Origin: a virus
Direction: 5' to 3' (one strand)
Virus record (IMG/VR): IMGVR_UViG_3300007734_000464
Span: 1 to 21,711 of that record
Length of the DNA: 21,711 nt
The translations under genes and the position numbers were made by a program. Of this stretch, positions 1 to 16,382 are shown one piece after another (positions within the stretch are counted from its first letter, which is position 1; each line of letters begins with the position of its first letter). Under the pieces are notes generated by a model. It was not told where the DNA came from and made no database searches. It saw nothing but the letters and a program-made list of their open reading frames with translations.

Positions 1-422
1 GGCCGAATCACATTGCCCCATACGCTAGGCTTGAAGTCGCCATATTCGTCAAGGTATACGCCGTTAAAGCCTAGTCCCCGCATAGCGTCAGCGTTGTCTG
101 AGCCAAACAGCATAATCTTTGCGCCGTTAATCAGTTCCACCATCAGATCGGCTTCGTTTGTGTTTTTGGTAATTGGGGCAGCGTAATGCTTAAGGTAATC
201 CCACGCCACACGCTTGGCCTGGCTGCGGAACGGGGCAATGTAAGCATACTGGGCGCTGCGGTTGCCCTCTGTGATTGCCCGCTTAATCACATCGTTGATT
301 GCCGCCACAGTCTTACCGGCCCTGCGGTGGGCGACCAAACATGACCAACGGGTCGTGCGGTTGTGGAACGGCATAAATGCGTCCCGAGGGCTATACGGCA
401 GGATTATTTCCCTGCTGCCCAT
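1..422 (-). CDS. terL: Terminase large subunit, N-terminal part (runs off left edge)
   Basis: This is the ATPase motor and nuclease that packages DNA into the prohead. The visible 140 residues hold the start of the ATPase domain: a Walker A motif AHRRAGKT at residues 31-38, an aromatic-rich stretch with YIAPFRSQAK at about 61-70, and a Walker B motif GVYLDE at 121-126 ending in the catalytic glutamate. The ATG at 422 overlaps the 3' end of the small-subunit gene by 19 bases, a normal terS-terL arrangement. The nuclease domain lies outside the window. Motifs and position leave little doubt; the exact start could also be the in-frame ATG at residue 17, but that would leave a large gap before Walker A unexplained and a needless loss of overlap. 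Confidence 0.93.
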   Translation of the reverse strand, partial: MGSREIILPYSPRDAFMPFHNRTTRWSCLVAHRRAGKTVAAINDVIKRAITEGNRSAQYAYIAPFRSQAKRVAWDYLKHYAAPITKNTNEADLMVELINGAKIMLFGSDNADAMRGLGFNGVYLDEYGDFKPSVWGNVIR

Positions 423-742
423 TTGATCACCAAGTCATTGCCGTCCGCGCCGGTGATTTCCTGCTTAACCGTCTCAGCCCAGCGCATTTGCGTCTTCGTC
501 CACCATATCAGCGCCGTGGTGTCCCCGCTGGTGGCCTTGCTAAACAGCGTCTTGGCGATCTGCCCGTTAGCTTTGGCCTTGCCCAAGTCCAATTCGGTGC
601 GGTAATACTTCCGCAAAGTTTTGTCGTCTATGCCCACCAAAATGGCAATTTGCTCATGGGGCAAGCCCAATCCGCTGGTGCTTTCGACCATCCTGCGGCT
701 TTCATCGGTTGGCTTGTGAGCCTCTTGTGCAATGATTGGCAT
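404..742 (-). CDS. terS: Terminase small subunit-like protein
   Basis: Probable DNA-recognition subunit of the packaging terminase, 112 residues, which is short but within the range for such proteins. An N-terminal helix-turn-helix-like segment is visible at about residues 18-50 (GLGLPHEQIAILVGIDDKTL, then a Tyr-Tyr-rich helix), followed by a helical region with TSGDTTALIWWTKTQMRW typical of phage small terminases. The start is fixed because an in-frame TAA stands two codons upstream of the ATG. There is no clear Shine-Dalgarno sequence. The gene directly precedes and overlaps terL, which is the strongest support for the call. The family assignment is from motif pattern and synteny, not from a database match. 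Confidence 0.8.
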   Translation of the reverse strand: MPIIAQEAHKPTDESRRMVESTSGLGLPHEQIAILVGIDDKTLRKYYRTELDLGKAKANGQIAKTLFSKATSGDTTALIWWTKTQMRWAETVKQEITGADGNDLVIKWAAGK

Positions 743-850
743 TTTTTAGAGGGGAACTCGTATCAAGTTAGGGTTTATCATAACGAAAAAGACTGATCTT
801 TGCTTGGTTTTCCATTAGACTCAAGTTAAGCCAACTTAAAAAGGTCTTTT
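743..850. other. Short intergenic control region between terS and the gene at 851
   Basis: About 108 bases separate the divergently transcribed terS (minus) and the small plus-strand gene at 851. The stretch is AT-rich. It contains a Cro-type palindrome at 827-838, which sits 12 bases before the plus-strand ATG. A TATGAT hexamer on the minus strand (rc of about 772-777) could be a -10 element for the terminase operon, but no convincing -35 element was found for either direction, so I do not place promoters here. Confidence 0.5.
827..838. promoter_or_regulatory. Cro-type operator O4, distant copy
   Basis: TAAGCCAACTTA fits the palindrome TAAG-N4-CTTA. It is the exact reverse complement of operator O2 at 6304-6315, and with one flanking base the two share the 13-mer TAAGTTGGCTTAA. 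It lies between terS and the gene at 851, and just upstream of the latter's ribosome binding site. The match to the sites around the cro-like gene is seen in the sequence; binding by that protein is inferred. Confidence 0.6.
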
Positions 851-1075
851 ATGCAAACTAAATTAAGCCAAGTTAAAGCGGAATTTGATGCAGGCAATTT
901 TGCCAAAGCTATTCGCATTGCTTCTAAATTCCAAGATTTAGGCACGCAGCGCAATGCCATCCTTGATGCTAACCTTGCCATTACAAACCCACGTTGGATG
1001 ATTGGACTTGGCAAAGACATTGAGCAATCCATTGCAGCAGGCGTTGAGGCTTTACGCATCCGCTACGCTTTCTAA
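851..1075 (+). CDS. Small conserved phage protein of unknown function
   Basis: A 74-residue, predicted mostly helical, soluble protein. The pattern (QVKAEFDAGNFAKAIRIASK, then LGTQRNAI, then LGKDIEQSIAAGVEALRIRY) resembles a small hypothetical protein I recall from many phages of Proteobacteria; no function is known to me. It has a ribosome binding site AAAAAGG seven bases before the ATG. It is the only plus-strand gene in the left 6 kb, it has its own operator upstream and its own terminator downstream, and its 3' end overlaps the convergent methyltransferase gene by 24 bases. This isolated, individually controlled layout suggests a moron-like or regulatory gene, but that is inference. Confidence 0.75.
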   Translation: MQTKLSQVKAEFDAGNFAKAIRIASKFQDLGTQRNAILDANLAITNPRWMIGLGKDIEQSIAAGVEALRIRYAF

Positions 1076-2383
1076 TTCCAACACGCCTAAATCCACTTGG
1101 ACCTCGCCGCAGGCTTGAGCGGCTTTTTTTCCATCGCCTTTTACAAACACCAACACATTTTGGTGGGCTTTGCCTAGCTTGCGGCTAGATGAAAATGATT
1201 TTCCTGCCCTCATTGCTACAGAGCCACAAGGCGTTACCAAAATGGCTTCATTGTAATAATTTAAGCCAGCCTCCTTAAAAGCCTGCACGGTATCGCCCAC
1301 AAAATCGTAATAATTGCCTTTTTTGTCGCGCACTTCGCCCACTACAAAACAAGCAAACCGGTCTTTTTTAAGCAAAACACACGTTTTTTTGATAATTTCA
1401 AAGTAAGCGGTCCTAAATTCTGCGTAACCAAGGGTGCTTAAATCTTTTGGGTCATGGCTATAAACTTCCAAATCAGCATAAGGCGGGCAACTAAACACAA
1501 AATCGGCTTGCACATCTTTGCAAGTGCTGTTTATGGTTCGGCTATCCCCACAAACCCAAGCTGGCGGCGCATTGTCATCTATGCACATTTCGCTGGCTTG
1601 CTCTCGATTAGCGTTGACTTGTTCCTGGCGCAATTTGTGCCCAATATATTGCCGACCTAGCTTGCTTGCCACAATGCCGCGCACGCTACCACCCGCAAAA
1701 GGGTCAAGAACTATGCCGCCAACAGGTGAAAACCAAGCATAGGCCAATTCGCAAACAACAGGATCAAATATGCTTGTTCCCGATTCTCCTCGTTGCCTTG
1801 CAACCATATCAGGAGAACCGCCTGCGGGAGCATCTCTGCCTTCTTCAGATTTAATGCCCAAAGCAAGCCAAGCGCGTTTGCGATCTTGCCACCAACCTTC
1901 TCGAGCATTAAGAACGCTAAACGGAGGAATTAAAAATCTATCGGATAAATTGCCTTTTTCCGCAATGCCGTTTTGTTCTTCTTTTGCATCATCCAACAAT
2001 TTTTCTAATTCATCGGCATCAAACCCCAGCAATTCCAGCGCAAAACCGTCTGCCAGCAAGTCGTTTAACTCAATGGTCAGCATCTCATTGTCCCAGCCTG
2101 CATTCAGCGCCAAGCGGTTGTCGGCAATGATGTAAGCCCGCTTTTGCGTCTCGGTCAGGTCTGCCAGTTCAATGGTTGGCACTTCCTTGTAACCCAACTT
2201 ACGCGCCGCCATAAGCCGCCCGTGGCCCGCAATGATGCCGTTGTCCCCATCCACCAAAATGGGGTTTGTCCAGCCAAATTCCTTAATGCTTGCCGCAATC
2301 TGCGCTACTTGTGCGTCCGAATGAGTGCGGCTGTTCTTTACATAAGGAATAAGGTTGTCAACTTTTTTTTGGGTGATTTTCAT
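1052..2383 (-). CDS. ParB-domain / DNA methyltransferase fusion
   Basis: A two-domain protein of about 443 residues (numbered here from the ATG at 2383). An N-terminal ParB/Srx-like domain contains the signature AGHGRLMAARKLGY at about residues 47-60. A C-terminal amino-methyltransferase domain carries the SAM-binding motif LDPFAGGS near residue 225 and the catalytic motif FSCPPYADLEVYSHDPKDLS near residue 294, which points to N6-adenine or N4-cytosine methylation of DNA. Order is motif I then motif IV. The ATG at 2383 overlaps the stop of the hydroxylase gene as ATGA, so I prefer it over the TTG at 2443 or the ATG at 2416. In phages such enzymes usually protect DNA from host restriction; no partner nuclease is present. 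Motif II, usually with an acidic residue after a glycine, reads YIGHKL here, which is odd. The gene is the last of the early minus-strand operon. Confidence 0.88.
   Translation of the reverse strand: MKITQKKVDNLIPYVKNSRTHSDAQVAQIAASIKEFGWTNPILVDGDNGIIAGHGRLMAARKLGYKEVPTIELADLTETQKRAYIIADNRLALNAGWDNEMLTIELNDLLADGFALELLGFDADELEKLLDDAKEEQNGIAEKGNLSDRFLIPPFSVLNAREGWWQDRKRAWLALGIKSEEGRDAPAGGSPDMVARQRGESGTSIFDPVVCELAYAWFSPVGGIVLDPFAGGSVRGIVASKLGRQYIGHKLRQEQVNANREQASEMCIDDNAPPAWVCGDSRTINSTCKDVQADFVFSCPPYADLEVYSHDPKDLSTLGYAEFRTAYFEIIKKTCVLLKKDRFACFVVGEVRDKKGNYYDFVGDTVQAFKEAGLNYYNEAILVTPCGSVAMRAGKSFSSSRKLGKAHQNVLVFVKGDGKKAAQACGEVQVDLGVLELESVADA
1106..1130 (+). terminator. Rho-independent terminator of the gene at 851
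   Basis: The plus strand reads GCCGC (1106-1110), an 8-base loop, GCGGC (1119-1123) and then seven T residues (1124-1130). It begins 30 bases after the stop codon at 1075. It lies inside the 3' coding part of the convergent methyltransferase gene, which therefore carries terminator sequence on its antisense strand. Confidence 0.8.
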
Positions 2384-3135
2384 TTGTTGCGCGGTGCGTG
2401 AAATGTCTTTTCCCATTTCTTGTGCCGAAAATAAGGAATCCAAATGTAAGGAAAAAGCAAAGCCGCTGAAAGTATAAGCCGGTTTAACATGGCGTAGGGC
2501 CAGGGCAATGGTCTGAGAACGTCCAAAAACAGGACAACCCTGATTTCGTCGGTTGGGTTGTGGGCCTCATGTTCATAGGTGTCATCAAAGAACACCACTT
2601 CGCCTTCTTTCCATTCGTAGCGCAAGCCGTCCACAATCAAGTGCCCCTTTTTGCTGGCATCTGCTGGAACTGAAACCACCATGCCAAGGTGCGCCCTAAG
2701 TACGCCTGACCACGGGCCTCTGTGCATTGGCAACGATTTGTGTGGCGCAAGAATTGACAAATAGGCGCTTACGATTTCGGGGTACTTATCCACAATTGCC
2801 ATTGTCTGAGGCATCAACGCGGCGTTTTTGCGGAATTTGATGTTGGCGCACTTGAGAAAGAAAAATTTCCATTTGTCATCGTTAGACAAGTGTTCCTGAT
2901 CCGGCGACATGGTCTGAAATGGGGTCAATTCCTCATAGCGTTCTAGGATTTTTAAGACTTCTTCCTTGATTTGTGGGTGCGCGGCTTCTAATTCTTTGGC
3001 TGGGCGCAAAATCTTTTTGCTAAAAAATGGGTGATCACCAATTAAGCAACGATTGTGGAAAACCCGAAAAACGGCGTTGTATAGCCAAAATTCCACACGC
3101 CTAGACAAAAGAACAAATGCGTTAAGCATATGCAT
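2380..3135 (-). CDS. LpxO/aspartyl-asparaginyl beta-hydroxylase-type dioxygenase
   Basis: A 251-residue Fe(II)/2-oxoglutarate oxygenase of the AspH/LpxO family. The active-site pattern is complete: MHRGPWSG with H138, VLRAHLG with H149, the metal-site segment FFDDTYEHEAHN with H189, and the 2-oxoglutarate-binding arginine R199 in EIRVVLFLDVLRPLP. These correspond to the HCGP, RMHLG, FDDSFEHE and R residues of AspH known from the family. A hydrophobic stretch at about 215-235 suggests membrane association, as in LpxO enzymes that hydroxylate lipid A acyl chains. Protein hydroxylation is the alternative. It overlaps the upstream glycosyltransferase by 14 bases, so the two are probably made together. 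A second ATG two codons later is equally possible as start. Family confidence is high, substrate unknown. Confidence 0.87.
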   Translation of the reverse strand: MHMLNAFVLLSRRVEFWLYNAVFRVFHNRCLIGDHPFFSKKILRPAKELEAAHPQIKEEVLKILERYEELTPFQTMSPDQEHLSNDDKWKFFFLKCANIKFRKNAALMPQTMAIVDKYPEIVSAYLSILAPHKSLPMHRGPWSGVLRAHLGMVVSVPADASKKGHLIVDGLRYEWKEGEVVFFDDTYEHEAHNPTDEIRVVLFLDVLRPLPWPYAMLNRLILSAALLFPYIWIPYFRHKKWEKTFHAPRNK

Positions 3136-3799
3136 TTTTCATCTTAATTAAACCGTCCAACATACGGCTTTTGGTATTAAACCAAGGCTTGCTGTAGTCG
3201 CAATCGACGTAGTGGTCAAATTCCGGTATTCCCAAAGTGAAGTGCGCTATCTTTGTTCGCAAATGGTCGTGTTCGCCCACCAGCACGTTCCATTCCCTTG
3301 GCAAGTCGCCAATCAGTGAGTCGGGCAACCATTGGAATCGGTGCAATTCTTCACCGCTAGATTCTTCAATGAATTCGGGTGTCAACACTCTGTTGCGGTT
3401 GTGTTCACAGTTCCACAGCATCAGGCTTGACCAGTTTTTTCTTGGGTAGTCGCCGTTTCGGGATTCCATCGGTGTGCCAATGTACTTTCTTGGGTGTTTG
3501 GTCTGATAGTCGTGCTTGACAACCTGTACGGCATAGCGCGCATCGAACAGGCTTTCTAGGTCTTCAATGTCTGCCAGCATGAGCATATCGCTGCCATCCA
3601 AAAAGATAGCCTTATTCTTATATCCACACAGAAATGGTACTAGAAACCGCTGGTAGGTAAATGCGTTAGTCCCGTCCCGCTGTTTGCCGGATAAGGGCGT
3701 GATGCTGACCAGCCCCTTAGTGCGCTCTATGACCGATTGGCAAAATACATGGTAACCCACGGATTCCCGAGGGTCGTATCCTGCAAATATGCGGATCAT
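3122..3799 (-). CDS. GT8-like glycosyltransferase
   Basis: A 225-residue protein with the layout of a small GT-A fold glycosyltransferase. MIRIFAGYDPRES at the N-terminus resembles the nucleotide-binding strand of this group. IFLDGSDMLML at 65-75 looks like a metal-binding DxD-type site, NWSSLMLWNC at about 122-131 matches the usual asparagine-containing acceptor/donor loop, and KIAHFTLG followed by KPW near residues 185-207 matches the C-terminal metal-binding HFxG...KPW pattern of GT8 enzymes. Sugar and acceptor are unknown. It overlaps the ferritin-like gene before it as ATGA and the hydroxylase after it by 14 bases, which suggests a joint role in modifying the cell envelope or a protein. 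Confidence 0.78.
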   Translation of the reverse strand: MIRIFAGYDPRESVGYHVFCQSVIERTKGLVSITPLSGKQRDGTNAFTYQRFLVPFLCGYKNKAIFLDGSDMLMLADIEDLESLFDARYAVQVVKHDYQTKHPRKYIGTPMESRNGDYPRKNWSSLMLWNCEHNRNRVLTPEFIEESSGEELHRFQWLPDSLIGDLPREWNVLVGEHDHLRTKIAHFTLGIPEFDHYVDCDYSKPWFNTKSRMLDGLIKMKNAYA

Positions 3800-4152
3800 T
3801 TGAGGGTTAGCTTGTAGATCGTAGAATCCACCAACGCGGCAATTTCGTCCACGATGTTTTGCAATTGGCTGTCATCAGGCAGGGCCACACGATTCTTTTC
3901 AACAAACGCTTTCATGCTTGCCATGTACTTTTGCGGGTCTTTGGCGTTGTGAAAGTTCTCGGGGTAATCCTTAATTTTCTCGTAACCACCGTTGTATGCC
4001 TCGGCAAACTGGTCGGTCAGTTCAATGATTTCGGTGTAATACGCGCCCAATGCCATGTGTACGGCAAAGCTGTCGGTTGCCAAATGCATGAAATGGGTAA
4101 CCGTGCCGCTGTGCAGCATAGTTGAAATAAAGTCCGCGACATTTTTTTTCAT
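3796..4152 (-). CDS. Small helical ferritin/Dps-like protein (DUF5856-like)
   Basis: A 118-residue, strongly helical protein. The segment HFMHLATDSFAVHMALGAYY followed by an acidic helix with EIIELTDQFAEAYNGGYEKI resembles a phage family I recall as DUF5856, with the look of Dps or ferritin-type four-helix proteins (His, Glu and Asp spaced along helices). Metal binding is not proven: the ligands cannot be assigned from one sequence. The gene starts four bases inside the end of the HNH-like gene and its stop overlaps the glycosyltransferase start as ATGA. Function is unknown; a possible link to the iron-dependent hydroxylase two genes away is speculation. Confidence 0.65.
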   Translation of the reverse strand: MKKNVADFISTMLHSGTVTHFMHLATDSFAVHMALGAYYTEIIELTDQFAEAYNGGYEKIKDYPENFHNAKDPQKYMASMKAFVEKNRVALPDDSQLQNIVDEIAALVDSTIYKLTLK

Positions 4153-4487
4153 AGTGCCACCTCTAAAGCCCCATTGTAAGGCAATGGTACGTCTTTAGGC
4201 CATTGCCCCATACTGGTCAATGCGTCCACCGTCTTTTGGTGCGCCTGATTCCATAGCTGCTGGCGCTCATTCTTGTCCAAATTTGCGCCTTGGTCAATCT
4301 CAAAATGGCAATGTAAGCACAGCGCAGCCACCAAATTATCGTCGGCCTTGATGCCCCGACCCTTGCCGCCGCCCCAGTTTGTGTGTGCGGCCTGCACCAT
4401 TTGGCCTGACCCGCAACATTGGCAGTCAAGGCTTGCCACTAATTTCAGCAGTTTTTTGCTTCTGACGTATGCGTGTTTTTGTAGCAA
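4149..4487 (-). CDS. HNH/Ref-like zinc nuclease
   Basis: A 112-residue protein with a zinc-binding frame: C22-x2-C25, H35 in QAAHTNW, and C57-x2-C60-H61 in ALCLHCHFEID. The GKGRGIKADDN segment between them is typical of small phage nucleases related to HNH and Ref (RecA-dependent) enzymes. It probably nicks or cuts DNA during recombination or packaging and sits among other recombination genes. The reading frame begins with TTG at 4487, inside the zinc-ribbon gene (62-base overlap); family-like sequence starts by about residue 9 and no ATG lies upstream of it, so TTG is the best available start. A GTG at 4439 would cut into the conserved part. The nuclease call is from motifs only. Confidence 0.7.
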   Translation of the reverse strand: MLQKHAYVRSKKLLKLVASLDCQCCGSGQMVQAAHTNWGGGKGRGIKADDNLVAALCLHCHFEIDQGANLDKNERQQLWNQAHQKTVDALTSMGQWPKDVPLPYNGALEVAL

Positions 4488-7555: not shown

Positions 7556-7716
7556 TGAAAACAGATGCTACTTTTGACAGACCCCGTGAAGATTACGAAT
7601 GCCCAATCTGTGGCAATGATTGCGGTGAATTAACGCGACACGCCTTTGACGATGTGACCGTCATTTGGTATTTTACTTGTGAAAAATGTGGTGAAGAATT
7701 TGGAGGTGACCTATGA
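7555..7716 (+). CDS. Small zinc-ribbon protein
   Basis: A 53-residue protein with two CxxC knuckles, CPICG at about 16-20 and CEKCG at about 42-46, the frame of a zinc ribbon. Start ATG at 7555 shares one base with the preceding stop (TAATG). The frame is open to 7534 but lacks a ribosome site there. It precedes erf and could bind DNA or RNA. Confidence 0.7.
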   Translation: MKTDATFDRPREDYECPICGNDCGELTRHAFDDVTVIWYFTCEKCGEEFGGDL

Positions 7717-8312
7717 AAAATATTGCATCAGCTTTGGTACGCGCCCAGCGCGGATTTGCACCGGCGTTAAAAACGTCTACAAACCCGCATTTCCGGTCAA
7801 AGTACGTTGACCTTGCCGGTTGTATTGAGGCCGTTGTGGATGCCTTAAATGCCGCAGGAATAGCCTTGATTCAACGCACCAGCGAGGACAACACCGGAGT
7901 AACTGTGGAAACGGTGTTTGTGCATGAATCGGGCGAAATGATGGAATGCGGAAAATTGCACGTTCCCGCCAGCAAACAAGACCCGCAAGGGTACGGCTCG
8001 GCGTTGACTTACGCCAGGCGTTACAGCCTCATGGCGGCGGCTGGAATAGCGCCCGAAGATGATGACGGCAATGCCGCCAGTAAGGTCAAAGTGTCAGCAA
8101 CCAAGACTGACCTTGTGCCGCCCAGCCGCATGGCAATCGTTGCAGACGTTGCAGCAGCCATTGATGAGCGCATGAGCGCCAATGACCTAATCGGTGCGTT
8201 TGAAGAATATTTGGGCGTTACCGATGTGGAAGAAAAGACCGCTTTGTGGGGAATGCTTGACAGCAAAACCCGCAGCAGCATTAAGAAACACGCCGAATCA
8301 CTTAAAGGGTAA
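7713..8312 (+). CDS. erf: ERF-family single-strand annealing protein
   Basis: A 199-residue recombinase of the P22 Erf superfamily, which anneals complementary single strands and helps circularise or recombine phage DNA. The family signature is clear: NPHFRSKYVDLAGCIEAVVD at about 23-42, GIALIQ, HESGEMME, then QDPQGYGSALTYARRYSLMA near 87-106 and IAPEDDDGNAA. The C-terminal part (about 120-199) is a separate helical tail. It overlaps the zinc-ribbon gene as ATGA and stands just before an SSB-like gene, a common ERF neighbourhood. Confidence 0.93.
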   Translation: MKNIASALVRAQRGFAPALKTSTNPHFRSKYVDLAGCIEAVVDALNAAGIALIQRTSEDNTGVTVETVFVHESGEMMECGKLHVPASKQDPQGYGSALTYARRYSLMAAAGIAPEDDDGNAASKVKVSATKTDLVPPSRMAIVADVAAAIDERMSANDLIGAFEEYLGVTDVEEKTALWGMLDSKTRSSIKKHAESLKG

Positions 8313-10656: not shown

Positions 10657-10822
10657 TTACGCTAGACCCTGCATGAACGCTGAAAAAGCCCTCAAGGACG
10701 CGCATTGGGCCGTGTTGGACAACAAGTATGACTTGGCTGTCAAATTGACGTTGCAGGCGCTTGTAGAGGTTTCTAAGATGCATTCCGCATTGGTGCATCA
10801 AGTTGAAACACAAGCTAAGTGA
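10649..10822 (+). CDS. Last gene of the plus-strand operon, small helical protein
   Basis: A 57-residue helical protein starting with GTG at 10649. The strong ribosome binding site AAGGAG, seven bases before the GTG, decides this start. Residues MNAEKALKDAHWAVLDNKYD and the following helix give a two-helix look. The stop at 10822 overlaps the convergent endolysin gene by 8 bases. Function unknown. Confidence 0.68.
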   Translation: MIDYARPCMNAEKALKDAHWAVLDNKYDLAVKLTLQALVEVSKMHSALVHQVETQAK

Positions 10823-11231
10823 TTTTTGCGCCTTGCTGAAGTTGGGCAAGAGTCATTCCACCCGTATATTGAAAGTGCGGGTACTCTTTAAAAGTTTTCC
10901 AATCGCCAGCCCATTCTAGGCCGCAGGATTTGCCGATCTCGCCGATTTGTTTCCAAACAGCTTGATCGTCCCATATAGCTTTTCCATTAACCAACGGCAC
11001 AACATCTAGGGCGCAGCGGTGGTTGTGCCAGGATTGCCCTGCTTTGGCTCTTGTGACTACGTTGCCAGGCGTTGTGCGGCCTTGGGCGTAAAGCGCGTTT
11101 TGGCTTTCACTGTCTCGATAGGTGGAGGTCACTAACAAATCAATGCCCTTGGCTTTGGCAGCGTCTACAAACGCTTGTGCTCGCTGTTTAACGGGCGGTG
11201 CTAGGTCATCCAAGCTGCGGGAATTGATCAT
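10815..11231 (-). CDS. Endolysin, M15-type peptidase
   Basis: A 138-residue zinc peptidase of the L-Ala-D-Glu / VanY-like M15 group that cuts peptidoglycan stem peptides at lysis. The zinc frame is visible: H69 and D76 in SWHNHRCALDVVP and H119 in EYPHFQ; STYRDSESQNALYAQGRT at about 36-53 is the usual substrate-side segment. No signal peptide, so it needs a holin, and holin-type genes lie directly upstream with an ATGA overlap. Confidence 0.9.
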   Translation of the reverse strand: MINSRSLDDLAPPVKQRAQAFVDAAKAKGIDLLVTSTYRDSESQNALYAQGRTTPGNVVTRAKAGQSWHNHRCALDVVPLVNGKAIWDDQAVWKQIGEIGKSCGLEWAGDWKTFKEYPHFQYTGGMTLAQLQQGAKIT

Positions 11232-11635
11232 TTGGCGGCAACCCCGTTAATTTTTTCCGCAGTTCTCAAACCGCCAAGGCCAAGCATTCCCAACAAAAGC
11301 GGCATGATTGTGCCGGTGTCCATAGCGGGAAACTTTACTGGGTGACCGTAAAGCATTGATCCCCATTCAGCCAGCGGGCCAATGACAAACTGAACGGCAA
11401 AACCTGCACCGCATACCCAGCCAATGCCTGGTCGCCAACCGCTGACAAACACCGAGGGGTTGGTAGCTTCGGCCTTGTTGATGTCAAGCTGGCCCGCAAT
11501 CATTGCCAGTTCGCCGCTTTGCTGTAGCTTGAACAATTCCAATTTTGCAGCAGCAGCTTGCGCTGGATCAGGCCACAACCGATCCATCACCTTGCCGCCA
11601 ATGTCCAAAAGCGCAGATACGGGATCAAGTGCCAT
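11228..11635 (-). CDS. Holin of the 3TM-type family
   Basis: A 135-residue protein with an amphipathic N-terminal half and hydrophobic segments at about 70-92 (GWVCGAGFAVQFVIGPLAEW) and 108-128 (MPLLLGMLGLGGLRTAEKI). NPSVFVSGWRPGIGWVC before the first segment is typical of the phage and gene-transfer-agent holin family with three membrane segments. It would open the inner membrane for the endolysin. Its start overlaps the preceding gene by 11 bases. Confidence 0.8.
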   Translation of the reverse strand: MALDPVSALLDIGGKVMDRLWPDPAQAAAAKLELFKLQQSGELAMIAGQLDINKAEATNPSVFVSGWRPGIGWVCGAGFAVQFVIGPLAEWGSMLYGHPVKFPAMDTGTIMPLLLGMLGLGGLRTAEKINGVAAK

Positions 11636-11855
11636 TTGATGTTCCTTTGTTGGTGCGGATGTCTACAATTTTCTCTGCGGTTTTACCAGCAAAAATTGCG
11701 GTGATCACGATGATCATGGCCTGACCTAGCAAATCCACATATGCGCCCCGTGTTTCCAAATTGAAAACTGACAATAACGCAAAAAAGAAATAAGAAAACA
11801 GCAAGAACGCAACCGTTACGGGCTGGATGTTCCGCGCTAACCACGATTCATTCAT
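11625..11855 (-). CDS. Small holin-like membrane protein
   Basis: A 76-residue protein with two predicted transmembrane helices, about 13-32 (TVAFLLFSYFFFALLSVF) and 43-62 (LGQAMIIVITAIFAGKTAEK). The N-terminal MNESWLARNIQPVTV pattern is one I associate with small phage holins or holin partners. Position between lysis genes supports that role; it could be a second holin or antiholin. Confidence 0.62.
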   Translation of the reverse strand: MNESWLARNIQPVTVAFLLFSYFFFALLSVFNLETRGAYVDLLGQAMIIVITAIFAGKTAEKIVDIRTNKGTSNGT

Positions 11856-12130
11856 TTTGATGCCCTTTCATGCAATTGCTCAATTCTTGCCCGAATTTTC
11901 ATGCTGTCCGATGACCCCATAAGGGTTGGTAAATTTGCGTAAATCAGGGTCAATTGCTGTTTGTTGCAAGTTGGCCCTGATTCTTCCAACCATTCCCACG
12001 CCTTGTCTGCGCGTTCTTTTGGGTTATTGTTTGAATACATGAGGTTTACAAAATCAGAAACGCTGCATTCGCGTTTGATTGTTGAGCCGTACACAAAAGC
12101 GGCAATCAAAAAAATAACAAGGCCGCGCAT
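11852..12130 (-). CDS. Small exported or membrane-anchored protein in the lysis cassette
   Basis: A 92-residue protein with a hydrophobic N-terminus (MRGLVIFLIAAFVYGS) followed by a soluble helical part with two Cys residues. The N-terminus could be a signal peptide or anchor; there is no lipobox. A spanin-like role is possible from position but not shown. It follows the previous gene with no spacer and overlaps the next as ATGA. Confidence 0.58.
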   Translation of the reverse strand: MRGLVIFLIAAFVYGSTIKRECSVSDFVNLMYSNNNPKERADKAWEWLEESGPTCNKQQLTLIYANLPTLMGSSDSMKIRARIEQLHERASK

Positions 12131-12364
12131 TCATTTGTCGGCTTTTGCTTCTAGCTTGTCAAAGATGCGCTCTAGCGTTGCGTCGATCTTGTCAAACCGG
12201 CTTTCAATGTCGGTCTTTGAGACGTAGTTTTTGGGCAGATCAATCTCAATGGCCTTGATGTCAGCTTTAAGGGCTTTCACCGAATCCCATATTTCCTTAC
12301 ACCACCAACCAATAGCAACAAGCAATATGCCTGCAACAAAGTTAAACATTGCTTGGTATTCCAT
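12131..12364 (-). CDS. Membrane-anchored coiled-coil protein
   Basis: A 77-residue protein with one transmembrane helix at about 7-22 and then a charged helical region with heptad spacing (DSVKALKADIKAIEIDL and IESRFDKIDATLERIFDKL). This single-anchor plus coiled-coil form is seen in inner-membrane spanins and in some tail-associated proteins; the call is uncertain. The ATG at 12364 follows the upstream stop by two bases and is preferred over an in-frame start at 12415 inside that gene. Confidence 0.58.
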   Translation of the reverse strand: MEYQAMFNFVAGILLVAIGWWCKEIWDSVKALKADIKAIEIDLPKNYVSKTDIESRFDKIDATLERIFDKLEAKADK

Positions 12365-12366
12365 AA

Positions 12367-12627
12367 TTAAACTTTTGGGTATTTGTTTTTGACGGTTTGA
12401 ATAGTTGCTTTCCACGCATCCATGCCGCCGTGGTACATCAAATCAAGTTGATCAACTATAGACGGGTACTCAGCAGCGCGTTTGTATTTGTACGCATTGG
12501 GGTCTACCCAAGCAGCAACTGCGGCAAGGTCAATTTCTACCTTGTTGCCGTTTTTGTCAAACGCGCCAGCGCCATCATCAATCGTGACAACTTGCGAATA
12601 AAGAGCATATATTGCTTCGTGATTCAT
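12367..12627 (-). CDS. XkdW-like tail-associated protein
   Basis: An 86-residue protein. MNHEAIYALYSQVVTIDDGA at the start and RAAEYPSIVDQLDLMYHGGM near residues 50-70 is a pattern common in short phage proteins encoded right after tail fibre genes, often annotated as XkdW-like. It may assist fibre assembly. It overlaps the fibre gene as ATGA. Confidence 0.7.
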   Translation of the reverse strand: MNHEAIYALYSQVVTIDDGAGAFDKNGNKVEIDLAAVAAWVDPNAYKYKRAAEYPSIVDQLDLMYHGGMDAWKATIQTVKNKYPKV

Positions 12628-13817
12628 GCTGCTATCTCCATGACAGTAATTGTCGATGCTATTCGGGCAAAACTTGCAGAATCCGTATCGGTTTGTGTTC
12701 GATTAAAGTAAAAAGTCCCAGAGCCAAGTTTAAATTGAATTTTATAAGTTGTTGCTGATGTTGTTGCTGGAGAATCTAAAAAGTGAATAGCAAACGGGCC
12801 TAATTGACTAGCATCTGAAGAATAGCTATTAGTGCTTGCAGTTGTTCTGCTACCCGCTGTATCTCCTATGGAAATTGCAGTAGAACCTCTTAACAATTGA
12901 ACTACAAGACTACTCACTCCAACTTGACCCATACCCGCGCCAGTTACATGAACAAGAATTTTGCTTGTATTTGATGTTGGCGTAATGCTTACAGACATAC
13001 CAGTAATATCTGTATATGTGCCAGTAACAGTAGATGTAAATGTATCTGTTTTAGTTGTGCTTACAACTTGCAATATTTTTCCACCAGTTGGTGTAGACCA
13101 TACAGGCGCAGAACCGGAACCAGCAGAAGTCAATACTTGACCAGCTGTTCCAGCCGCACTTGTTAAAGTTAATGCCGTAGTGATATTTGGAGATGCAAGA
13201 GTAGGGCTAGTCAATGTCTTGTTGGTGAGGTTTTCAGAACCCGCAAGAGTTGCCAATGTGCCTGTGGTTGGGAATGTGACATTGGTTGCCGCTGTAGCGG
13301 TCAAGGTCAATGAATACGCGCCTGATGTGGCAAGGGTTGCGCCGTCCGCAATGGTCAGCGTTGCAGCCGTTGCAGGCGCTGTGAATGCAACCTTGTTAAT
13401 GCTGGTTGCCGTAGCCACGCCCAACACTGGGGTAATCAATGTCGGCGTGTTGTCCAACACCATTTTGCCCGTGCCGGTCACCGCTGCTGATAAGGTCACG
13501 CCGCCATAAGTAATTGTGCTTGCAAAATTAGCCAACCCACCAACCCACAACGCCTTGGCAATACCTACACCGCCCGCTGTAATTATTGAGCCTGTGGTGG
13601 TGTTTGTAGCGTCTGTAATGAGGCTTGAGTTGATGCCTTGTGCAAATGGGATTCGCACGGTGGTCGCCGTCTGCCCGTCCTTTGTGATTGCGGTGGACAA
13701 GCCGGTGGCTAAGTCTGCGGTCAGCGCATTAAATGCGGAACTGCTGATAACCGTGCCGGTCACCACGGGCTGACCCGAGGTGTTAATCTGAAATGTGCCG
13801 GAGCCGTTGTAACTCAT
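12624..13817 (-). CDS. Tail fibre / receptor-binding protein
   Basis: A 397-residue protein rich in Thr, Ser, Ala and Gly without charged stretches, typical of fibre shafts. LAGSENLTNKTLTSPTLASP at about 190-210 is a widespread phage fibre motif. The C-terminal 150 residues, from about KILQVVSTT onward, look like a separate beta-rich head domain (GTYTDITGMSVSITPTSNTS, then SKILVHVTGAG), which probably binds the host surface. The DNA encoding this head is much more AT-rich than the shaft, suggesting it was exchanged. The gene lies upstream of the lysis cassette and four bases after the ejection-type gene. Confidence 0.8.
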   Translation of the reverse strand: MSYNGSGTFQINTSGQPVVTGTVISSSAFNALTADLATGLSTAITKDGQTATTVRIPFAQGINSSLITDATNTTTGSIITAGGVGIAKALWVGGLANFASTITYGGVTLSAAVTGTGKMVLDNTPTLITPVLGVATATSINKVAFTAPATAATLTIADGATLATSGAYSLTLTATAATNVTFPTTGTLATLAGSENLTNKTLTSPTLASPNITTALTLTSAAGTAGQVLTSAGSGSAPVWSTPTGGKILQVVSTTKTDTFTSTVTGTYTDITGMSVSITPTSNTSKILVHVTGAGMGQVGVSSLVVQLLRGSTAISIGDTAGSRTTASTNSYSSDASQLGPFAIHFLDSPATTSATTYKIQFKLGSGTFYFNRTQTDTDSASFARIASTITVMEIAA

Positions 13818-13821
13818 GGTT

Positions 13822-15552
13822 TCACCTTTGTTGCTGTGCTAGTGCTTCTTGATTAAGGCGCAGCCATTCATCAAGTCCGCTTTGTTGGTTGCCCGCTTGC
13901 CCTGCTAACAGAGCCGCCATCTTAGCTTGCTGTGGGGTAATTTGAATGCTAGGAATTGCTGGGACGTTTTTTATTGGGTTGTAAGGCGATTGCGCCGCCG
14001 CAGTCAATGCGTTTTGTGCTTGCGCCGGAAGTGCGCTGTAAGCAGCGCCACCAATGTTTTTTGCTGTTTGAACTGGGCTTGATAGCGCATTAGCCATCTG
14101 CCCGTATTTGTATGCCGTTTCGCCAACAACCCTGGGGCTAGATGACAAAACATCAGCAACAGCCAAAGCTGGGCCACCCGCGCCATATGCCAAATAAGCT
14201 GTTGGAACATTAGATACGCTTTGCAATCCGCGAGGTGTCAAGCTGTTCATGGCTTGGCCTGCCAATGCGGGCATCAAGTCTATGCCGCCTGCGTTTGACA
14301 ATTCTTGCGCCAAACTGATTCGCCGCCCATAGTTGGTGTTGACATTGTTTCGCATCAGCGATTGCAACTTACGCATTGCAGTGTCGGAAGATGCTTTGTC
14401 GCCCAATGACAATGTGCGCTCAATTTCGTTGATCAAATCAGACGATTCGCTGTAGCCCTTCATCACTTGGGCATAGGTCGGCGCTTGTTTGCCAATCTCA
14501 GATTTGACCGAATCGTAGACTTGTTTACCAGCAGCGTATGCAGTTTTTTCTTCTTTTCCTAATTTGCCAAAATATTGCCAAAGCGTTTGCTTTAGGGCAT
14601 CCATAGCTTCCGGCGTGTGGTACTCAGCAGGATTAGAATTTTTCCAATTTTCTACTTCTGCTTTCATGTTTTGCAAAACATCGGCGGCAGTTGGGTCTTT
14701 GACTTTGCCCTTGTAATACGCCATGCTTTCCGCATTTTTTAGCGCATTGTCAATGCCGGTGAAATCAAGAACAGTCTTGTCGTTTTTGATGTTGACCATG
14801 CCCGACCGATAGTCTTTCATTTTGTCGGCGTTCATCTGAGCCAAATTTGCTTTGGCATCATCCAAAACTTGTAGAGACGGCACTTTGTCGCGCATATTCT
14901 CTAAAAAGGTTTGATTGCCTTCCGCACCAGCTTTGATGGCTTGATTGATTGGCTCCATGCCAACACCTGACTTTGCAGCCAAGTAGCCTTTTCCAATAGT
15001 TTCAGCGCCTTTGCCAACAGCTTTGGTGGCGGCAATGGCTTGGGTAACCGGATTGAGAACGTCCGATGCCTTGGTCAATATGTTGCCAGCCTGCGCTGTT
15101 TTTGCACCAATATTGGCGGCTTTTAACCCTGCGCCAGCACCACCGGCAAGCATTGAAACATCGCTCAAAATGCGAAATGGGTCTTCTTGTACAGTTTGCT
15201 TAAAGCCTTGGGTTGAACTGTAAGGCTTTACCAATTCTTGACCAACAACATTGGCAGTTTGAATAGCACGTTGTTGCGCTGCGGGGTTAACTTCAATGGC
15301 GTTGATGCCGCGCTGTACGGCGGCAGGCATGGCGTTGTAAAACCCACCAGCGGCAACATCAGCAATGCCTCTTGCGGTCTGTACGGGGCTTGAAATGGCC
15401 TCTACCAAACCATCAATTACATTTTTCTTAAAACTGCCAGGCGCATTAGCCAGCATTTTCATTGTGCTAAATGGAATTGGCTCAACAGACGCAACATCCC
15501 ATTGCGGCGGCGCAGCAGGCGCTACAGATACAACTTCCCATTGGTCTGCCAT
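13822..15552 (-). CDS. Large virion protein, probably an ejection/internal protein
   Basis: A 576-residue Ala-rich helical protein without membrane-protein or enzyme motifs. Its N-terminal repeats (QWEVVSVAPAAPPQWDVASV) show an internal duplication of a Trp-Glu/Asp-Val-x-Ser-Val unit. The middle holds long helices and glycine-rich hydrophobic patches (AGGAGAGLKAANIGAKTAQA). Such proteins in short-tailed phages are ejected with the DNA to form the trans-envelope channel; I infer this from size, composition and position between tail and fibre genes. It shares one base with the preceding gene (TAATG). Confidence 0.58.
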   Translation of the reverse strand: MADQWEVVSVAPAAPPQWDVASVEPIPFSTMKMLANAPGSFKKNVIDGLVEAISSPVQTARGIADVAAGGFYNAMPAAVQRGINAIEVNPAAQQRAIQTANVVGQELVKPYSSTQGFKQTVQEDPFRILSDVSMLAGGAGAGLKAANIGAKTAQAGNILTKASDVLNPVTQAIAATKAVGKGAETIGKGYLAAKSGVGMEPINQAIKAGAEGNQTFLENMRDKVPSLQVLDDAKANLAQMNADKMKDYRSGMVNIKNDKTVLDFTGIDNALKNAESMAYYKGKVKDPTAADVLQNMKAEVENWKNSNPAEYHTPEAMDALKQTLWQYFGKLGKEEKTAYAAGKQVYDSVKSEIGKQAPTYAQVMKGYSESSDLINEIERTLSLGDKASSDTAMRKLQSLMRNNVNTNYGRRISLAQELSNAGGIDLMPALAGQAMNSLTPRGLQSVSNVPTAYLAYGAGGPALAVADVLSSSPRVVGETAYKYGQMANALSSPVQTAKNIGGAAYSALPAQAQNALTAAAQSPYNPIKNVPAIPSIQITPQQAKMAALLAGQAGNQQSGLDEWLRLNQEALAQQQR

Positions 15553-16382
15553 TAGTTCACCTTTTCCGGTTTACCGTTTGTCAAAGTCCATTGCTGCCCG
15601 TTCTTAAAAGTTGTAACGTGGCCTTCTTTTAGCGCGGCAACGGGTGGTGCAGCAACGGGTGCTGGCGAAAAATTGGATGGTGCAGATTGAAAATTCTCTA
15701 CATTGAAATTTGCTTTTCCAAGGTTTTCAAGGGTGTTTTTGCGTTTTGCCTCAATCAATGCCGCACGTTCTTCCATCCGTTTTTTAATCATTGACGGGGT
15801 CATGCTTATATCGACTGTTGTTGCTTCCCATGACTTTGTTTCGCCAGGAGTCAAAGATGCACCATATAACGCATTACGGGCAATATTGTCATTGGCGTTA
15901 TACGATTTCCACCAATCGGCTTGCGCTTCTTTATCACCGCCAAATGTGCTTGCCATTGTGTTAGCAATGTCACCGGCAAATTTAACTTTGTACCCGCCAT
16001 ATTCCGGCCTAAATGTTTCCAATAAACGTGTTTGTGCACCAAGTGAATTGTCTATTGCCGTGATTTTTTCTACTTCACCTGATGGCAAATCACGCTTTTT
16101 GACAGGCGCTGCCGCTTCCCGTTGTGCTTTATCAGTTTCTTCTCGCGCCTTTGCCATGCGTTGATCAAATGCTTTGGGGCTTTCGTTAGCTTGACGAGGC
16201 ATTGGCGCTGCAACAGCGGCAGGCGCAGCACCGCCAACTACTGATTGCATGGCAGCAACCAATGGATCAGGCGCTGCCGCCGCAGCAGGCTGGGGCATTA
16301 CAACCGGCGCAACACGGCGGGGCGTAGCCGCTGGTGCAGCGGGTGCGGGCGTACCATAAAGATCATCGTACAAAGCCATCAT
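15552..16382 (-). CDS. Virion-associated protein with Ala/Pro-rich N-terminus
   Basis: A 276-residue protein. Residues 1-60 are Ala/Pro-rich and probably unstructured, the middle is helical and charged (about 60-130 and 200-230), and the C-terminus ends with a small GHVTTFKNGQQWTLTNGKPE beta segment. Function is not recognised; position suggests another ejection or tail-interior protein. The ATG at 16382 overlaps the previous stop as ATGA. Confidence 0.57.
   Translation of the reverse strand: MMALYDDLYGTPAPAAPAATPRRVAPVVMPQPAAAAAPDPLVAAMQSVVGGAAPAAVAAPMPRQANESPKAFDQRMAKAREETDKAQREAAAPVKKRDLPSGEVEKITAIDNSLGAQTRLLETFRPEYGGYKVKFAGDIANTMASTFGGDKEAQADWWKSYNANDNIARNALYGASLTPGETKSWEATTVDISMTPSMIKKRMEERAALIEAKRKNTLENLGKANFNVENFQSAPSNFSPAPVAAPPVAALKEGHVTTFKNGQQWTLTNGKPEKVN

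Follow-up and report, generated by a model that had tools for sequence, protein, structure and literature searches.

The AT-rich 3' end of the tail fibre gene in the window, by which we mean the whole 21,711-nucleotide stretch of viral DNA analysed here, is in our judgement likely to be a modular tip that is exchanged together with the next gene and whose synonymous composition is held near the value of an AT-rich pool. On sequence comparison, the predicted head of the fibre and the small gene that follows it appear to form a cassette that can be exchanged and that occurs in many different phages, and the unusual composition of the tip is probably the footprint of cassette exchange.

A Composition Step Within the Tail Fibre Gene

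The features on which the argument depends are as follows.

13817..12624, minus strand: tail fibre open reading frame (ORF), 397 codons
13521..13817, minus strand: N-terminal anchor of the fibre, codons 1-99, common to many phages with many different C-termini
13206..13520, minus strand: shaft of the fibre, codons 100-204, with near-normal GC3 and 85-95% amino-acid identity to loci L081-L087
13197..13217, minus strand: left joint, coinciding with the GC3 break at 13205
13083..13205, minus strand: linker, codons 205-245, from PTLASPNITT after LTNKTLTS, with GC3 of about 0.2
12624..13082, minus strand: head, codons 246-397 and stop, a predicted TNF-like jelly-roll (lectin-like), PHROG 6942 tail fibre
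12367..12627, minus strand: partner gene, 86 amino acids, overlapping the head gene by ATGA
12364..12369, minus strand: right joint, where DNA collinear with ten other loci of the group starts again

The initial annotation had sampled a G+C content of about 63% at 13321-13380 and of about 30-32% at 13021-13080 and 12721-12780, and the contrast is real: recomputed values are 65%, 30% and 31.7%, respectively. The segment 12624-13090 has 38.5% G+C compared with 48.5% for the window as a whole, and among 2125 frames of 467 bases moved in steps of 10, a single one, which overlaps that segment, lies lower. For total G+C the likelihood break falls at codon 245.7 (window position 13081), in agreement with the earlier placement of the change near residue 245. 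The break in GC3 is stronger and comes earlier, at codon 204 (window position 13205), where the value drops from 0.593 to 0.191. Neither break was matched in shuffles (0/2000 for GC3; 0/1000 codon shuffles for total G+C). The proposed coincidence of the step with the junction of shaft and head thus holds for total G+C, whereas GC3 and the homology joint both place it some 41 codons upstream, at codon 204.

The step is carried by synonymous sites. Relative to an amino-acid-corrected expectation derived from the codon usage of 14 other window genes, codons 1-243 of the fibre contain 124 GC-ending codons against 120.6 expected, and codons 244-397 contain 27 against 73.7. In the sliding codon-usage comparison that the initial annotation had proposed, the 3' segments of the fibre were the most AT-skewed in the window ORFs, supplying all of the 12 most extreme among 287 segments of 120 codons (ORFs of at least 120 amino acids).

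Joints of the Exchanged Segment

Codons 1-204 share 84.7-86.7% DNA identity with L081-L085, and the local alignments stop at 13197-13210; in blocks of 60 bases, identity to these loci is 0.78-0.88 just before 13217 and 0.43-0.47 just after. One other low-identity block of this size lies in the shared part (13577-13518, 0.47-0.53), near codon 90-100, close to the second joint described below. The anchor and full shaft together occur in seven loci (L081-L087), all of which carry another tip that lacks a match to the window linker or head; in L081-L085 this tip has mostly normal GC3, with L085 dropping to 0.3-0.4 at its end. Because L086/L087, at 70-71% DNA identity, have the same shaft and the same tip family as L081-L085, the simplest view is that this other tip has been paired with the shaft for longer and that the window head is the newcomer. 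The shaft (codons 1-204) has no match in cultured phages.

On the other side, DNA collinearity is back at 12364-12369, directly after the 86-amino-acid gene, in L081, L082, L084, L089-L093, L107 and L116; it is back at 12319 in L095/L096, at 12400 in L124 and at 12500 in L121, and the latter two loci have a match to the partner gene. As homology ends at about 13205 and restarts at 12364-12369, the swapped unit comprises the linker, the head and the 86-amino-acid gene. The tip named in the initial annotation as the exchanged unit is therefore too short a description: the head is exchanged, but the unit also takes in the gene downstream. Over 13226-13104 the DNA identity to L089/L090 is 81%, though the tip of those two loci differs.

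A second joint is found near codon 99. The anchor-sharing fibres were drawn from 128 loci, 7 of them truncated, and 86 distinct fibres were kept once duplicates, fibres shorter than 240 codons and loci with fewer than 500 codons of other genes had been dropped; these 86 fall into 21 C-terminal clusters with no cross-match at E<=1e-4. The motif LTNKTLT occurs in 18 contexts (that of the window being removed as redundant with its near-copy L265), which join 5 upstream clusters to 8 downstream clusters in 10 combinations, and this is suggestive only of a hub of joints. With the exception of the near-copy L001, no fetched locus combines this full shaft with this head; the pattern that the initial annotation had set against an exchange, the same shaft, head and step over a long evolutionary distance, was thus not found. 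As regards a diversity-generating retroelement (DGR) acting on the tip, the longest direct repeat at 10800-15600, too short for a template repeat, was 27 nt at 67-70%, and no reverse transcriptase was found among the 20 window ORFs scanned with Pfam, a subset of the ORFs of a window that is itself a fragment.

The Predicted Head and Its Overlapping Partner

The window fibre matches PHROG 6942 at 1.1e-17, with residues 173-396 aligned to positions 472-707 of the 708-position profile and the C-terminal end included, as do all 59 of 59 aligned head homologues. An AlphaFold monomer of the head (pLDDT 95.1, pTM 0.89) resembles TNF-like domains with structural Z scores of 12.6-13.9 overall and Foldseek E-values down to 1.5e-6, and a TNF-like, lectin-like fold is accordingly predicted with confidence. 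The matches include the C-domain of Chlamydia Pgp3 (Z 13.9), PLTL (13.6) and the N-domain of BC2L-C (13.1); these proteins share the fold, at 14-19% identity, but are not phage fibres. The head is probably trimeric and, on the strength of the model, probably glycan-binding. What the initial annotation called a receptor-binding tip is thus upheld as regards a predicted fold of a suitable kind, from which receptor binding itself would follow by inference. The head profile also matches chain AE (orf22) of PDB entry 9efk at residues 500-658 (E 8e-40), a homologous head region with a different upstream part; this homologue is present there in 18 chains, which would fit six trimers. Eight matches to the head were found in bacterial genomes, 7 of the 8 in metagenome-assembled genomes. 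A Klebsiella phage fibre with a TNF-like domain is mentioned in the accessible text of one further source (PMC12671077).

A scan with the 86-amino-acid partner protein recovered 51 loci, several groups of near-identical contigs among them. With the near-copy L265 excluded, a head homologue, in a few cases only partial, stands directly upstream of the partner in 42 of 50 loci; 6 of the 50 have no head match and 2 have the head elsewhere, and the window anchor has no match in any of the 50. The 4-base overlap of head and partner is present in 39 of 49 scorable junctions (near-copy included). The structure model of the partner is confident and mostly helical. Foldseek found no match to it in the PDB (best E 4.9), and sequence comparison with the PDB gave one weak match, 2vnl (E 0.025). 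Among 37 members of the partner family, no Pfam chaperone family (such as DUF4376) appeared at E<=0.01, the sole Pfam match being a stray AIG2_2 in one member; the PHROGs matched (9114, 2687 and 1787) are all of unknown function. From its position and by analogy with known pairs, the partner is probably a fibre chaperone, an assembly partner or a tip cap. The partner gene is a mosaic in its own right, with a half beyond the motif EYP that occurs in approximately three types.

Reuse of the Cassette and Recent Transfers

The head and partner recur as a pair in phages without this shaft. The cultured Limnohabitans phage DC33 has the pair with the same ATGA overlap, and both homologues are present in P-SSP7, HTVC010P, MEP301 and MEP402. 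The annotated gene neighbourhood of the cultured phages was checked in DC33 and P-SSP7; in P-SSP7, another tail fibre gene lies between the head and partner homologues, and the partner match in HTVC010P is partial. The heads of P-SSP7 (Prochlorococcus), HTVC010P (Pelagibacter) and DC33 are 40-49% identical in amino acids to that of the window and are annotated as tail fibre, uncharacterized or hypothetical protein; they sit on other shafts, and the window shaft has no match in the phage collection.

The search with the head alone against fibres with different shafts, as had been proposed, thus retrieved it from phages that lack this one. Direct comparison accordingly bears out the claim of a horizontally exchanged tip, with one shaft carrying different tips and one head occurring without the shaft. 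The same cannot be said of the route by which the claim was originally reached: the step alone neither proves nor dates a recent import, because it is present in dozens of phages and the co-located partner is near normal.

Recent movement can be seen directly in some pairs. Among 114 heads compared, 22 pairs have at least 80% DNA identity over 300 bases, most of them collinear copies, and four pairs with differing flanks were compared further at the protein level. In the clearest, L276/L277 and L279 share 903 bp at 97.8%, a stretch that takes in the head gene, its partner and 38 codons of the gene after it, and this island starts with the base immediately following the preceding gene. Upstream, the three ORFs of L277 (bases 1-4461) all lack an L279 protein match at E<=1e-5, and three downstream ORFs do match (40%, 92% over 66 amino acids, and 46%); the two phages are therefore not unrelated throughout, having downstream genes in common. 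Weaker cases are L268/L285 (611 bp, 82%) and L266/L271 (1162 bp, 89%), with some flanking pieces in common, and L067/L078 (728 bp, 81%), where the partner is not included. L268, L266 and L325 (P-SSP7) have several small fibre ORFs in a row, and in L268 and L266 the first 40-60 residues of a fibre gene have matches at two or more sites of the locus they were compared with, a pattern suggestive of fibre genes set out in arrays.

Composition Across Loci

Near-identical contigs occur in all sets (e.g., L089/L090, L086/L087, L297-L299), and clustering was therefore used when heads and partners were compared over 49 clusters. For the cassette set, head and partner had to lie within -30 to 120 bases of each other, the head match had to start at or before residue 30, and at least 300 codons of other genes had to be available; with identical heads counted once, 58 loci were kept, the window included. 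In these, the median GC3 deviation from codon-usage expectation is -0.12 for the head and -0.02 for the partner. The head deviates below the partner in 55 of 58 loci and below the portion of its ORF that precedes it in 40 of 44, and it is the more AT-shifted of the two in 46 of 49 head clusters (82 loci). The difference is largest in the 20 clusters with genome GC3 of at least 0.38 (median head -0.23, partner -0.03; head lower in 19/20), and 44 control gene pairs from the same loci have medians of -0.03 and -0.01. Across the 49 clusters, head deviation correlates with genome GC3 at a rho of -0.83, the partner at -0.31. The notion that head and partner are equally foreign can be discarded, the head being far more AT-shifted.

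Forty-two loci were kept for a positional GC3 profile along the cassette. Where genome GC3 is at least 0.38, the median deviation upstream of the head is +0.11 at 40-20 codons (16 loci) and -0.11 in the last 20 codons (19 loci); it runs through -0.19, -0.26, -0.28 and -0.20 across the head and stands at -0.10 and +0.06 in the partner's two halves (20 loci). In 16 loci with genome GC3 below 0.30, the head deviates by only -0.05 to -0.09. The window itself is at -0.03 at 70-40 codons before the head and at -0.39 in the 40 codons before it, at -0.38 to -0.22 within the head, and at -0.06 and -0.08 in the partner halves (partner GC3 0.41 observed, 0.48 expected). Plain GC3 in DC33 is 0.59 before the head, 0.26 in the head, 0.38 in the partner and 0.57 in the next gene.

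Head homologues in GC-rich phages, in loci with no detected partner gene, reach a GC3 of 0.53-0.75, and the TNF-like fold therefore does not demand AT. Over 81 loci not thinned for relatedness, head GC3 tracks genome GC3 (rho 0.88, slope 0.86), which rules out a head family that is AT-rich everywhere, and head GC3 lies below that of the genome in 92.6% of them; the slope is 0.36 in loci with the partner gene, so that the value of 0.86 is not valid for the cassette class.

Among the 21 tip clusters on the anchor, 13 have median deviations of -0.11 or lower and 8 lie between -0.04 and +0.10, the window cluster being the most extreme (median -0.33). The anchor itself is above genome expectation (median +0.12 over 86 fibres), opposite to most tips, and the start-to-end contrast that 84 of 86 anchor fibres display is consequently due in part to the anchor. 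That structural genes of phages show elevated codon adaptation is described in the accessible text of an earlier study (PMC2266997). Trees of head and partner were built from 44 loci. Genome GC class changes 10 times on the head tree, compared with about 15 in shuffles, and 7 times on the partner tree; its clustering on the head tree implies that exchange between GC classes is somewhat restricted. The nearest head relative of the window, L004, is AT-rich (GC 0.35), at an SH-aLRT of only 91 and with no star.

Other Genes of the Window and a Taxonomic Observation

One further gene bears on the mechanism considered below.

7713..8312, plus strand: ERF-family protein (PF04404, 5e-22)

The ERF family is one of single-strand annealing proteins, and the gene is a possible driver of mosaic recombination. 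Elsewhere, window positions 2380-3799 encode an aspartyl/asparaginyl beta-hydroxylase (PF05118, 1.8e-38), here in a phage, adjoining a weak match to glycosyltransferase family 8 that is below the Pfam cut-off, and positions 1052-2443 encode one protein that combines a DNA methylase (N6_N4_Mtase) match with a ParB-like N-terminal match slightly below that cut-off. Limnohabitans phage DC33 (L324, PQ492659.1) is filed under Inoviridae; at 39 kb, and with its tail fibre head homologue near a lysis peptidase, its taxonomy line looks wrong.

Origin of the Compositional Trough

In the reading that we favor, the 3' end of the fibre gene and the next gene would have been replaced by recombination, with one joint in the linker, around codon 204, and the other immediately ahead of the gene starting at 12364. 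The ERF-family protein (7713-8312) is a plausible candidate for the recombinase that would join such diverged sequence. The head and partner would travel together, as one cassette, between phages whose genomes differ in composition, and the tip would be swapped more often than its flanks, out of a pool in which AT-rich phages predominate; at synonymous sites the composition of the tip would therefore stay near the value of the pool, not that of the genome, and the trough would be centred on the head. Frequent replacement of the tip out of such a pool accounts for the position of the deficit, for the fading of its median on two sides and for its scaling with genome GC3. We infer that an AT-rich pool is the cause of the trough that is observed in medians over loci. 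That a trough centred on the tip and fading into shaft and partner is a general footprint of continual exchange through such a pool is a broader claim, which we put forward tentatively and which may well prove wrong.

The main rival, which we consider unlikely, is that selection keeps the synonymous sites of the head AT-rich, whether for translation speed or mRNA openness while the trimeric tip folds or because the head is coupled to the partner gene that overlaps it; the modular swap would then be real but independent of composition. Selection would fit a head more AT-shifted than its partner in nearly every cluster though both can move together, as well as a step that recurs in phages with other shafts, and a constant head GC3 under selection would equally give the negative correlation of head deviation with genome GC3. 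It sits poorly with the high GC3 of head homologues in GC-rich phages (where no partner gene was detected), with a median deficit that fades into both flanks, and with the several other tip families that share the anchor without any deficit. Somewhat less probable again is a single recent import of head and partner from one AT-rich phage, the step being its unameliorated scar. The joints are indeed sharp, the other tip of the relatives is of mostly normal composition, and the nearest head relative, weakly supported, is in an AT-rich phage; yet the partner of the same cassette is near normal, the same step is present in many other phages, and no near-identical donor was found among the matches listed. 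Amino-acid composition alone, chance heterogeneity or chimeric assembly we regard as very improbable indeed. The head is Ser/Thr-rich, and 263 control genes have a slight end deficit (median -0.05), but the effect lies at third codon positions and persists after amino-acid correction, which rules out amino-acid composition as sole cause, and a start-to-end contrast of 0.3 is reached by 2.3% of those controls against 28% of the 86 anchor fibres. Chimeric assembly is ruled out by a second contig identical to the window across both joints (100% over 7013 bp, possibly from the same sampling effort) and by the cultured DC33, which has the same arrangement and step.

The pool reading has difficulties of its own. 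No close donor is found for the window head: near-copy aside, the best relative has 60% amino-acid identity among the best 80 of 128 and of 127 relatives. Since head and partner moved together in L277/L279, both would be expected to bear the signature of a donor, but the partner is close to normal; under the pool reading this needs either an additional head-only exchange or a faster adjustment of the partner. The left edge in the window is a sharp step, the fading being a property of medians over loci. GC class is clustered on the head tree, and the 8 of 21 tip clusters noted above lack an AT excess.

Relation to Known Systems

Exchange of fibre genes among unrelated phages has long been known, and was reportedly described by Haggard-Ljungquist in 1992. 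Tip swapping as such is therefore not new; in the window case the tip is TNF-like and compact, and the partner gene that overlaps it is very small. The quantitative trough is a modest, testable addition. No description of a trough in head relative to partner was found in the literature consulted, which covers few subscription journals, and the trough may already have been published elsewhere.

Two published systems come close, as far as the accessible text of each describes them. In Alteromonas phages V22 and A5, a fibre and a downstream chaperone are likewise common to distantly related phages, a sharing attributed to transfer and recombination (PMC10579305). The chaperones there are of 195 and 239 amino acids with DUF4376, whereas the partner here has 86 and no member of its alignment matches DUF4376; the joint here, moreover, lies inside the fibre gene. 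Pam3 gp24/gp25 likewise pairs a TNF-like fibre domain with a separately encoded two-domain chaperone (PMC9608196), but Pam3 has a glycine-rich distal domain, and its gp25, at about 162 amino acids, includes a beta-sandwich domain, unlike the 86-residue and, in its model, mostly helical partner described here.

Implications

The swapping of tips determines which bacteria a phage infects. Here one compact cassette can be traced through uncultured phages, with the joints in the window placed to tens of bases, and relatives of it are present in cultured phages that infect Limnohabitans, Pelagibacter, Methylophilales and Prochlorococcus. Should the trough indeed be left by exchange, composition alone could serve to flag host-recognition modules in metagenomes; were that reading true, host-range modules and their rates of exchange would become readable from single genomes, without relatives.
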